DNA from: Jiella endophytica
GTDB taxonomy: Bacteria; Pseudomonadota; Alphaproteobacteria; Rhizobiales; Rhizobiaceae
DNA length: 64,000 nt
Reading direction: 5' to 3'
NCBI RefSeq assembly: GCF_004519335.1
Contig: NZ_SOZD01000002.1
Coordinates: 434,001-498,000 of the forward strand
The translations under genes were made by a program, and so were the position numbers. Numbering within the stretch: position 1 is the stretch's first letter; every line of letters starts with the position of its first letter. The notes under the pieces are model-generated. The model was not told where the DNA came from and did no database searches. It saw only the letters and a list, made by a program, of their open reading frames with translations. Of this stretch, positions 9,162-64,000 are shown piece after piece.

Positions 9162-9526
9162 AGCCTTCGAAGCCTCCTGCCGTTCGTGCCGCACCGGCGC
9201 TCAGGATTAACTGCGAAGGATTGACAATCCATTCCGCACATCACTTTCGGGAAAGACTATATCTCGTCGTCGTTAATCATTTTCTTTCCGACCTAAAGTG
9301 CTTTTCATCGGTTTTTCTAAGATCTCCTGACAGATCATCGAAGTCAGTCTTGCAGATAGTCAGTGATCGCATGGCAAGGTTCGGCTCGCGACGGGTCGGA
9401 CCGCAGCCACCCGATCCCCCGCGCCGGACGATTTCCGCCAGCCGCCGGGCGCAAATCGCTCTGGCGGTTTCACTCTCCCGGCATCGGTCGGAAAGACCTG
9501 CCATTCAACCTGAGGAGAGACCCGTC
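9162..9526. promoter_or_regulatory. Intergenic region, AT-rich, with promoters of both flanking genes
   Basis: 365 bases with no credible coding sequence. The part from about 9240 to 9360 is much richer in A and T than its surroundings and lies between divergent genes. The right end holds the 34-base block that is repeated upstream of the next paralogue (see 9457-9490). Confidence 0.4.
9457..9490 (+). repeat. 34-bp direct repeat, copy 1, upstream of small secreted protein gene
   Basis: Identical over 34 bases to 10133-10166. It starts CGCTCTGGCGGTTTCACTCT and ends CGGCATCGGTCG. Both copies end 36-39 bases before the ATG of a small secreted protein, so the element probably carries the promoter or 5' leader and was duplicated together with the gene. 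Confidence 0.8.
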
Positions 9527-9748
9527 ATGATCCGCAACGCCATCATCGCCGCCGCCACCGTCGTCACCGCCGCCGCCGCCCTCGCCGCTCCGGCCAGCGC
9601 CAACGGTTACAGGTCCTACGACAGCTACGACTACGACACCGTCCGCTACGAAAAGGTCTGCCACATCGAGAAGCGCAAGGTCTTCGCCGGCTACGACGAG
9701 TGCGGCAACAAGCTGTGGGTCTGGAAGCGCGTCCGCTCCTGCCACTGA
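9527..9748 (+). CDS. Small secreted protein, KRVRxC family, paralogue 1
   Basis: 73 aa. MIRNAIIAAATVVTAAAAL continues into a clear signal peptide with a cleavage site around APASA-NG. The mature ~47 residues are Tyr/Asp-rich, then carry a motif shared by four genes in this window: C-x6-V-x2-G-Y-x3-G-x2-L-W-x-W-K-R-V-R-x-C, ending in His. The two outer cysteines, 28 residues apart counted inclusively, could form a disulfide around a beta-hairpin. A third Cys (YDECGNK) occurs in this copy and the next. GAGGAGAGA precedes the ATG. The gene is monocistronic, with a terminator after it. Function is unknown. Confidence 0.85.
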   Translation: MIRNAIIAAATVVTAAAALAAPASANGYRSYDSYDYDTVRYEKVCHIEKRKVFAGYDECGNKLWVWKRVRSCH

Positions 9749-9844
9749 GCCGCCGTCCCGGGCCGATCCGGCCCGAACACGCCCGAACCCTCCCCCGCTG
9801 TCCGGCCGCCAACGCCCCTGGCTCCCCCTCCGGACAGTTTCAGG

Positions 9845-9875
9845 AAAACCGCCCCGTCCTCCCCGGGGCGGTTTT
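9845..9875 (+). terminator. Rho-independent terminator after paralogue 1
   Basis: A perfect 11-bp stem (AAAACCGCCCC at 9845-9855 with GGGGCGGTTTT at 9865-9875) has a 9-base loop and ends in a T run. It lies 97 bases after the stop codon. Confidence 0.85.
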
Positions 9876-10132
9876 CTCCGTTTCAAGCGTGCCAGTCTCG
9901 TAGGCTGCGACCGGGCGACAAGCCGGCGCGGTCGTTCACCCGCCGAAGTCCCGTCTTCGGGTCGCCGCTGCAGGCAATGTCCGGCCGGGAAGCCGCGCTC
10001 CCGTGCCCGGCGGATGCTTTCGCGCAGCCGGCCAAGAGGATTTTCCAACGCCCGGCGCCGCGCGTCTTGCGGGGCCGAAGCCTCGCCTCTGCCGGTCCCG
10101 GAGAACTTTTTTCGATCGGCCGGCGCGAAAAC

Positions 10133-10166
10133 CGCTCTGGCGGTTTCACTCTCCCGGCATCGGTCG
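10133..10166 (+). repeat. 34-bp direct repeat, copy 2, upstream of paralogue 2
   Basis: Exact copy of 9457-9490, placed at almost the same distance from the following ATG. The ~300 bases before each copy (9750-10130 for this one) show no coding sequence that I recognise. Confidence 0.8.
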
Positions 10167-10205
10167 AACGGACCAGCACCCCTCAGAACCCGAAGAGAGA
10201 GACCC

Positions 10206-10424
10206 ATGATCCGCAACACCATCATCGCCGCCGCCACCATCGCCGCCGCCGCTGCCGCCCTCGCCGCGCCGGCCAGCGCCAAGAGCTGGCACAAGCCGCA
10301 TTACGGCTATGACAGCGTCCGCTACGAGAAGGTCTGCCACATCGAGAAGCGCAAGGTCTTCGCCGGCTACGATGAGTGCGGCAACAAGCTCTGGGTCTGG
10401 AAGCGCGTCCGCTCCTGCCACTAA
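10206..10424 (+). CDS. Small secreted protein, KRVRxC family, paralogue 2
   Basis: 72 aa, a tandem duplicate of the gene at 9527. The signal peptide is MIRNTIIAAATIAAAAAAL followed by APASA-KS. From VRYEKVC to the final RVRSCH the two proteins are identical, while the short linker after the signal peptide differs (KSWHKPHYGYDS here, NGYRSYDSYDYDT there). So the C-terminal disulfide-type module is under strong constraint and the linker is not. GAGAGAGA precedes the ATG. It has its own upstream repeat and its own terminator. Confidence 0.85.
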   Translation: MIRNTIIAAATIAAAAAALAAPASAKSWHKPHYGYDSVRYEKVCHIEKRKVFAGYDECGNKLWVWKRVRSCH

Positions 10425-63012: not shown

Positions 63013-63219
63013 TCAGGAGCAGACCTTGACGCGCTTCCAGCGATAGACCGGCTTGCCGTGATTGTCGTAGCCGACCACGACCTGCTGCCGTACCCAGTAA
63101 CAGTTGGTGGAGCTGGTGAAACTGTAGTTCGGCCAGAAATACTGGGCCTTGGCGCCGGAGGCCGAAGTGGTAGCGGCGACGGCGATGGTGGCAAAGGCGA
63201 TGGCGGTGTTGCGGATCAT
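63013..63219 (-). CDS. Small secreted protein, KRVRxC family, paralogue 3
   Basis: 68 aa. MIRNTAIAFATIAVAATTSA plus SGAKA-QY is a signal peptide. The C-terminal module has the same spacing as the genes at 9527 and 10206: C-x6-V-x2-G-Y-x3-G-x2-V-Y-x-W-K-R-V-K-x-C, then a final Ser. The linker is short and aromatic/Ser-rich (YFWPNYSFTSSTN). The third cysteine of paralogues 1 and 2 is replaced by His (YDNHGKP). AAGGACCCGACC before the ATG is a fair ribosome binding site. It has its own terminator and transcribes toward gltD. Confidence 0.85.
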   Translation of the reverse strand: MIRNTAIAFATIAVAATTSASGAKAQYFWPNYSFTSSTNCYWVRQQVVVGYDNHGKPVYRWKRVKVCS

Positions 63220-63408
63220 GGTCGGGTCCTTGTCCAGGGTGCGGAAGTGGCTGGCATTTTCGGATCGGGGCGCCGGCGGCTCGTCTCGTCCGCCGATGAG
63301 TTGACCCTAGGGATGGTCCCGGTCCGGCTCAGTGATCCGCGTCACAGGCACTCACCGAGGCAGTCCGAATGACGACGAGCGCCCTTCCCGGCCGACGCGC
63401 CATCACAC

Positions 63409-63468: not shown

Positions 63469-63705
63469 TCAGAAGCAGATCCGGACGCGCTTGAACTTGT
63501 AGATCGGCTTGCCGAAGTGGCTGTAGCCGATGAAGACCTTGCGGGTCACGAACTTGCAGTGGCTGTAGCCGAAGCCGTTGTTGACGATGATGACGCGCTT
63601 GTTGAAGCCGTGGTTGTGCTTGAAGCCGTGGGCCTGGGCGGCACCGATGGAGCCGACGGCGACGACGGCGGTGGTGGTCAGTGCGATGAGAGCCTTGCGG
63701 ATCAT
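63469..63705 (-). CDS. Small secreted protein, KRVRxC family, paralogue 4
   Basis: 78 aa. MIRKALIALTTTAVVAVGSI and GAAQA-HG form a signal peptide. The mature part begins with a His/Lys/Asn-rich stretch (FKHNHGFNKR), then VIIVNNGFGYSH, then the family module C-x6-V-x2-G-Y-x3-G-x2-I-Y-x-F-K-R-V-R-x-C, ending in Phe. Only the two module cysteines are present. GGAACGATACC precedes the ATG. The gene is monocistronic, with a strong terminator. Function unknown; a His-rich N-terminal stretch in this copy could bind metal. Confidence 0.85.
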   Translation of the reverse strand: MIRKALIALTTTAVVAVGSIGAAQAHGFKHNHGFNKRVIIVNNGFGYSHCKFVTRKVFIGYSHFGKPIYKFKRVRICF

Positions 63706-63942
63706 GGTATCGTTCCTTTCGAGTTCCAGGGCCTTTTCTCGAGCCCTGTGGGTCGGGGTTGACGACGGCCTTTTCTGCCCGCCGATGAGATGACCCTACC
63801 GACGCCGCGGTCCGGCCTCAGTGACCTGCGTCACTCAAGTGTCGAGTGGCGAAAAGGAGGTGCGGCGCGGTTCGTCGTGACTCCGTATCGCCGAGGTACT
63901 ATGCTCGCCTGAGCAAAGGCGGATTTGCCGGAAAGGGACGTC

Positions 63943-64000
63943 ATGACGGTCGAGGTCAGGCCGACGGAGAAGGTGGCAGCGCTGGAGCGCTGCATGGTGT
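63943..64000 (+). CDS. Start of an unidentified gene, cut by the window edge
   Basis: ATG 63943 preceded by GGAAAGGGACGTC opens a frame, MTVEVRPTEKVAALERCMV, still open at the end. Nineteen residues are too few to name a family. Confidence rests only on the ribosome binding site and the reading direction. Confidence 0.5.
   Translation, partial: MTVEVRPTEKVAALERCMV

Follow-up and report, generated by a model that had tools for sequence, protein, structure and literature searches.

Many small exported proteins of alphaproteobacteria belong to no described family and offer no handle on their function. The window analysed here, a stretch of 64,000 nucleotides from Jiella endophytica (G000:C21:434001-498000), raises this problem at four genes that had been proposed, from the letters of the DNA, to form a four-member family of small secreted proteins with a common two-cysteine module. 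We asked whether such a family exists, how its genes are controlled and what its products might do. All four genes are present as reading frames (Table 1), and by eye each encodes an N-terminal hydrophobic stretch with an AxA-type end, a variable linker and the C-terminal module, so that export is predicted.

Table 1. Features of the family, its promoters and its neighbouring regulator (window coordinates)
Feature	Position	Strand	Basis and remarks
Clade-A upstream element GCTCTGGNNNTTYCACTC, gene 9527	9458..9475	+	Exact match, control 0
Clade-A small exported protein 1 (predicted export)	9527..9748	+	ORF, alignment; 73 aa, three Cys
C-x26-C module of protein 1 (Cys45 to Cys72)	9659..9742	+	Alignment; AlphaFold hairpin
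Clade-A upstream element, gene 10206	10134..10151	+	Exact match, control 0
Clade-A small exported protein 2 (predicted export)	10206..10424	+	ORF, alignment, profile; 72 aa, three Cys
C-x26-C module of protein 2	10335..10418	+	Alignment
Clade-B small exported protein 3 (predicted export)	63013..63219	-	ORF, alignment, profile; 68 aa, two Cys
C-x26-C module of protein 3	63019..63102	-	Alignment; AlphaFold hairpin
Predicted 5′ end and 5′ hairpin, protein 3 mRNA	63274..63297	-	Predicted start 63297; MFE -12.3 kcal/mol, z -0.25
Putative CRP-type site TGTGACGCGGATCACTG and TAGGGT -10 of protein 3	63304..63346	-	Pattern; centre at -41.5
Clade-B small exported protein 4 (predicted export)	63469..63705	-	ORF, alignment, profile; 78 aa, two Cys
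C-x26-C module of protein 4	63475..63558	-	Alignment
Predicted 5′ end and 5′ hairpin, protein 4 mRNA	63763..63786	-	Predicted start 63786; MFE -11.2 kcal/mol, z -0.74
Putative CRP-type site AGTGACGCAGGTCACTG and TAGGGT -10 of protein 4	63793..63835	-	Pattern search
Start of divergent Crp-family regulator	63943..64000, to about 64647	+	234 aa from ATG, or from TTG 63925

A family of two clades in the Jiella/Aurantimonas group

A profile built from the four window proteins was used to search the 5.25 Mb genome, which proved to carry six copies rather than the four first counted. The 9527 protein, itself among the sequences that built the profile, scored E 1.7e-39. The two additional copies form a second tandem pair on a different contig (G000:C22:158450, E 6.8e-38; G000:C22:159127, E 4.8e-38). 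Because the profile recovers these two sequences, which had no part in its training, together with relatives in other genomes, the shared module is not a product of chance similarity.

The survey covered 61 genomes, including that of J. endophytica, and a match with E < 1e-17 was taken as strong. Within the genus, eight of the nine other genomes gave such matches, G002 being the exception; of a further 27 from the GTDB family to which the genus belongs, two did so (G030 and G035, best E 8.2e-22 and 2.9e-27). The 24 genomes from other families gave no strong match, the best having an E value of 1.5e-4. Matches at E ≤ 1, mostly weak, occurred in 42 of the 61 genomes. Among these genomes strong matches are confined to the Jiella/Aurantimonas group. 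When named genomes were scanned with a clade-A alignment, 15 loci came back, under the names Jiella, Aurantimonas or Fulvimarina. The strict C-x26-C form does not extend over the order: among 397 of its genomes, a profile of the module alone matched six at E ≤ 0.01. Two of these belong to the genus, and the matches in the other four are weak or cover only part of the module.

We retained 36 distinct members (E ≤ 1e-14), 35 of them full-length; the other one, truncated at the end of a contig, does not enter the module counts. An IQ-TREE tree built from the 35 splits into groups of 18 and 17 members at a branch supported at 97/96. Clade A includes the 9527 and 10206 genes and the second tandem pair of this genome, and clade B includes the 63013 and 63469 genes. 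The family thus comprises two clades and, as described below, two promoter types. The four clade-A modules of this genome are identical in protein and carry 0-2 synonymous differences, which points to recent copying or gene conversion. Within each clade the module has a pN/pS of about 1.2. We set aside positive selection as its cause, the synonymous differences being too few (pS 0.12 and 0.27), and read the ratio as probable codon constraint or recent copying.

The C-x26-C module and its predicted fold

The four window proteins align with 18 invariant columns. The module extends over 28 residues from cysteine to cysteine, and the C-x26-C spacing is kept in all 35 full-length members. The identical spacing claimed for the four proteins is thus exact, whereas the full residue pattern written around it fits just 15 of the 35 full-length relatives. 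Likewise, two cysteines is the right number for the clade-B pair, but the 9527 and 10206 proteins carry a third one, which lies in the turn (DECG); it is present in 16 of 18 full-length clade-A members and in none of the 17 clade-B members. Linkers were said to differ strongly; they do so mainly between the two pairs, whereas the 9527 and 10206 proteins are 82% identical overall and have identical modules. Throughout the family the linkers are variable and of free length, and they are often rich in Gly, His and Tyr.

The original prediction also suggested a disulfide-closed β-hairpin with a basic KRV(R/K) face used for binding. AlphaFold was run on the 9527 and 63013 proteins with 17 sequences, and both models contain the hairpin, with strands at residues 45-56 and 62-72 in the 9527 protein and at 40-51 and 57-67 in the 63013 protein. 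Mean pLDDT values of blocks are about 80-93 across the module and lower elsewhere, and pTM is 0.34-0.35 for the two models. Strand one exceeds strand two by a single residue, and the terminal cysteines lie at the strand ends, as closure by a disulfide would need. Judging from the strand limits, a bulge in the first strand would allow these cysteines to come face to face, and we infer a disulfide between the first and last cysteine of the module. Strand residues are conserved across both clades. The basic character is general, with a charge of at least +2 at pH 7 in 34 of 36 mature chains (cut by script at the AxA site; the other two are near neutral), but the KRV string is not fixed.

Arenicin, protegrin and thanatin are β-hairpin antimicrobial peptides that are short, cationic and closed by disulfides. 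The Jiella proteins would resemble them in a short cationic hairpin, predicted in two proteins, and in a putative disulfide. They differ in their longer ring, in being bacterial and chromosomally encoded, and in having no sequence match in the PDB; a profile search of solved structures gave nothing better than E 0.61.

That no function is assigned to this module was upheld by the family libraries, none of which gave a credible match (Pfam and NCBIfam; PHROGs and PADLOC for the four window proteins). With the 35 members as queries, the best E values were 6.1e-4 in Pfam (DUF1218) and 2.8e-4 in NCBIfam (HxsA4), neither of them credible. For the four window proteins all Pfam and NCBIfam matches fell under the curated cut-offs and were confined to residues 3-55, and PHROGs and PADLOC returned nothing. 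We rejected DUF1218, DUF3551, DUF4148, mini_HHHH, TMP_2 and Cry1Ac domain VII, which matched weakly and in residues 3-55 only, and took a 'Shiga B subunit' match of 13 bits, against a cut-off of 175, as a signal-peptide artefact. A phage or plasmid origin was also rejected: tblastn of the 9527 protein against phages gave no match, and the 63469 protein and a relative of the short form gave none against plasmids. Literature searches on the small-protein family found no paper about it.

A CRP-type promoter and a 5′ leader in clade B

Every one of the 17 clade-B genes is preceded by the sequence [AT]GTGA-N7-CAC[TA]G, followed after 20 nt by a -10-like hexamer. A first expression for the site caught 16 genes and was widened to take in the seventeenth. 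The hexamer is TAGGGT or TAGGTT in most cases, TAGGGC in one gene of locus L072 and TACCTT in L074. With the hexamer placed at positions -12 to -7, the TGTGA-N6-TCACT palindrome is centred at -41.5, which we take to be the class II position of CRP, overlapping the -35 region, as at E. coli class II promoters. The Jiella site shares this placement before the predicted start; it differs in its TAGGGT-like -10 hexamer, and its start is predicted from sequence geometry. None of the 19 clade-A genes has the CRP-type arrangement within 260 nt upstream.

In the J. endophytica genome the box-plus-hexamer pattern occurs twice, before the 63013 and 63469 genes (control 0). A TAGGNT form of the pattern, which misses the 63469 gene (its site starts with A) and the TAGGGC gene, occurs 15 times in 10 genomes of the group (reversed-pattern control 0), and 12 of these sites precede family members, covering 12 of the 14 clade-B genes that these genomes carry. 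Another two, both in G006 (L157 and L159), stand before exported proteins of 102 aa, nearly identical to each other, that have a Gly-rich hydrophobic stretch and end in C-x23-C; these have the clade-B promoter and 5′ leader and were missed by the protein profile. The remaining site (L156, G004:C38:49797) precedes a repeat-rich protein, RTX-like by eye, and lacks the ATCGG leader.

The predicted transcripts begin alike. The string ATCGG starts 6-8 nt past the hexamer in 17 of 19 leaders (the 17 of clade B and those of L157 and L159), and when the first 34 nt from that point are folded the minimum-energy structure is a hairpin starting at nt 2-4 in all 19, one of them in a different register, a count made with no shuffle control. 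For nine leaders folded with shuffles, z ranged from -0.25 to -3.85, the two window copies being the weakest (-0.25 and -0.74). With a longer leader some copies take other folds. The predicted RNA hairpin recurs across the group, and the window copies taken alone do not make a convincing case for it.

A neighbouring Crp-family regulator

Divergent from the 63469 gene is a Crp-family gene that runs past the end of the window (G000:C21:497943-498647). Counting this locus, homologues that are 62-82% identical were found in the fetched flanks of nine of 13 clade-B loci, divergently oriented in seven and upstream on the same strand in two. The fetched flanks of the other four loci (L067, L069, L073 and L074) hold no such regulator. 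L067 and L069 come from genomes that have the regulator next to a different clade-B locus, and in G035, the genome of L073 and L074, none was seen. In seven genomes the clade-B genes lie between the regulator and a gene that is gltD-like by eye. Beside the clade-B pair of L065 (G001) the Crp-family gene is split over two overlapping frames (L065:3466-4169), and is either interrupted or affected by an assembly error.

The protein has cNMP_binding and Crp HTH domains, with PF00027 (1.2e-22), PF13545 (4.4e-15) and PF00325 (4.6e-5) all matched over their cut-offs, and with 95.7 bits falls far under the cut-off of 266 of the NCBIfam CRP equivalog NF008732. Its best solved match is 7pza (E 2e-33), an entry named in a paper on the structure of Clr, a cAMP/cGMP receptor of Sinorhizobium meliloti (PMC10127613). 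Alignment with 7pza shows a common PRSADA stretch and gives the recognition helix as R-E-N-V-N-R. That paper gives RE(T/M)VGR for the main Crp cluster, with which the Jiella helix has R, E, V and R in common but not T/M and G, and GTNNCNNNNGNNAC as the core of the Clr site (PMC10127613). This core is matched exactly by 11 of the 17 clade-B sites and missed by six, among them that of the 63013 gene.

The genome as a whole holds seven matches over cut-off to class III cyclase and six to HTH_Crp_2, and other Crp-family proteins of the genome could bind the clade-B site. The layout and the site suggest that clade B may be activated by the adjacent regulator, and this activation would depend on cAMP or cGMP.

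A different upstream element in clade A

The clade-A genes stand under another element. GCTCTGGCGGTTTCACTC lies upstream of all four clade-A genes of the genome, and, allowing up to two substitutions, the element precedes 18 of the 19 clade-A genes, that of L013 being the one without it. Up to three substitutions still gave none within 160 nt of the 17 clade-B genes. The 18-bp GCTCTGGNNNTTYCACTC occurs exactly at seven places in the genome (control 0) and with one mismatch at 14; the latter list may hold chance sites, because the control gives four. Exact copies were found in five of the 10 genomes of the genus, 16 in all.

Outside the family the GCTCTGGNNNTTYCACTC element precedes a caspase-like and an OmpA-like protein, an 81-aa protein and two types of exported protein, one Gly/Tyr-rich and one of 148 aa; these two types have it in more than one species when one-mismatch sites are counted. 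Exact or one-mismatch copies stand before mostly exported or envelope proteins at L080, L081, L082, L104 and L105, and further such loci are L110, L127, L128, L129 and L131. Among the one-mismatch sites are some within long open frames or ahead of proteins that show no evident signal (L125, L126).

The element fits no sigma-factor consensus known to us, and a literature text search with part of it found no paper. ChvI/BvrR was considered as the clade-A regulator and rejected, the Caulobacter ChvI consensus TTGC-N3-GCAA (PMC9731502) being unlike the element; the portion consulted of the BvrR paper does not print the letters of its motif (PMC9491525).

Clade-A genes occupy mostly two conserved chromosomal places. 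That of the window lies, by eye, between a pair of GGDEF/EAL and molybdopterin-type genes and a DUF992-like/RNase D-like pair, and the second lies beside a large PAN/alpha-2-macroglobulin gene (Pfam) and a gene that is LacI-like by eye. Copies at L045, L055 and L056 sit elsewhere. The PAN and bacterial alpha-2-macroglobulin protein (L057:2-4309, minus strand) is the divergent neighbour of the C22 pair and has relatives at eight loci. At L042 and L059 (G004) the flanks of the two places are swapped, as if copies had recombined, perhaps at rearrangement breakpoints.

A model for clade-B control and its alternatives

The two clades, their two promoter types and the regulator beside clade B are new, and the regulation of clade B, which was not visible to the original prediction, gives the best handle on the function of this unannotated family. 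As a whole, we think it fairly probable that these are exported, disulfide-closed and mostly cationic hairpins, and that clade B is induced by the neighbouring Crp protein of the cyclic-nucleotide type. Each precursor would carry a signal peptide with an AxA-type site, then a variable linker and a two-stranded C-terminal β-hairpin of 28 residues, mostly cationic and with aromatic residues, which a disulfide between the first and last cysteine would close. The Crp regulator, usually encoded next door, would bind the TGTGA-N6-TCACT-like site overlapping the -35 region and activate transcription in the class II manner, and the clade-B mRNA would begin with a short hairpin. Clade A would supply similar proteins, using another promoter element that it shares with other, mostly exported, proteins. 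The recurring regulator-target pair and the exact promoter geometry make the signal for clade B testable, and a Jiella module worked out in this way could help to explain the output of cyclic-nucleotide signalling in the order.

The most speculative step concerns what the hairpin does. Our guess, which may well be wrong, is that the mature protein remains periplasmic or at the cell surface and there attaches to an anionic polymer of the envelope, such as LPS, exopolysaccharide or peptidoglycan, so that cyclic-nucleotide signalling would remodel the envelope.

A rather unlikely alternative is that the proteins are structural or stress-shielding components of the envelope, a matrix or spacer with no specific partner, in which the module serves only for stability in the oxidising periplasm. 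Linkers of free length rich in Gly, His and Tyr would suit such a role, as would the sharing of the clade-A element with OmpA-like, caspase-like and Gly/Tyr-rich exported proteins, but the invariant cysteine spacing and the strand residues conserved over two clades suggest more than a generic spacer.

The pairing of a Crp-type receptor with an exported protein recalls Clr and smc02178 of S. meliloti, the best characterised case of such logic known to us. We know of no legume symbiosis in the Jiella group, and this counts against a further and unlikely reading, in which the Jiella proteins are the counterpart of the Clr-smc02178 axis in signalling or host interaction. Among solved structures, that of Clr is closest to the neighbouring regulator, and in S. 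meliloti this Crp-like cAMP receptor induces smc02178, a periplasmic protein of unknown function encoded near clr, which limits secondary infection of the legume host (PMC5498481). In both systems a Crp-type regulator lies near an exported protein of unknown function, the regulation being reported in S. meliloti (PMC5498481) and predicted in Jiella, and the Clr core fits 11 of the 17 clade-B sites. The helices differ, with R-P-K-V-N-R in Clr and R-E-N-V-N-R in the Jiella regulator, and so do the boxes, which are TGTGA or close to it in Jiella, whereas the site of smc02178 was first described as TGTT-N8-AACA (PMC5498481). The likeness to smc02178 is one of layout, and clade A is under another promoter.

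That the proteins are secreted β-hairpin bacteriocins of arenicin- or protegrin-like shape that kill competitors is improbable, for although the hairpin is predicted to be cationic and aromatic and the family is multicopy with diversified linkers, many copies occupy conserved positions where certain neighbours recur, none of which (some were searched against Pfam) looks by eye like an immunity or peptide-export gene, and solved structures offer no close match.

Possible shorter relatives in the order

A profile of four shorter relatives with C-x21-C (A8), which contains the cysteines, was run against 297 genomes of the order and gave matches in 13 of them (E ≤ 0.001). Of 16 ORFs taken from these loci, 14 (two of them identical) carry a C...C stretch that ends the protein or lies close to its C-terminus, its cysteines separated by 20-25 residues; 11 of the 13 genomes contribute to these 14. 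These Hyphomicrobiales proteins resemble the Jiella family in the signal peptide, the basic strands, a turn that often contains G and an R-V-x-C-type end, and differ in spacing, the Jiella family having 26 residues between the cysteines. In Pfam none of nine short-form proteins matched at 0.01, and NCBIfam gave one match, far under its cut-off. The likeness suggests common descent as a lead and not as proof, given the weak scores and the presence of the cysteines in the profile.

More broadly, and only tentatively, both groups could belong to an order-wide, uncatalogued class of exported cysteine-hairpin proteins whose ring varies with lineage (26 residues in the Jiella group, 20-25 in the others), and part of which in Jiella would act as a secreted signal or envelope effector under second-messenger control through a dedicated neighbouring cyclic-nucleotide receptor, by the logic of Clr and smc02178. 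Two of the 14 short-form proteins are encoded by the J. endophytica genome itself, as tandem small exported proteins outside the C-x26-C family with 20 residues between the cysteines (L170, G000:C11 near 594430).
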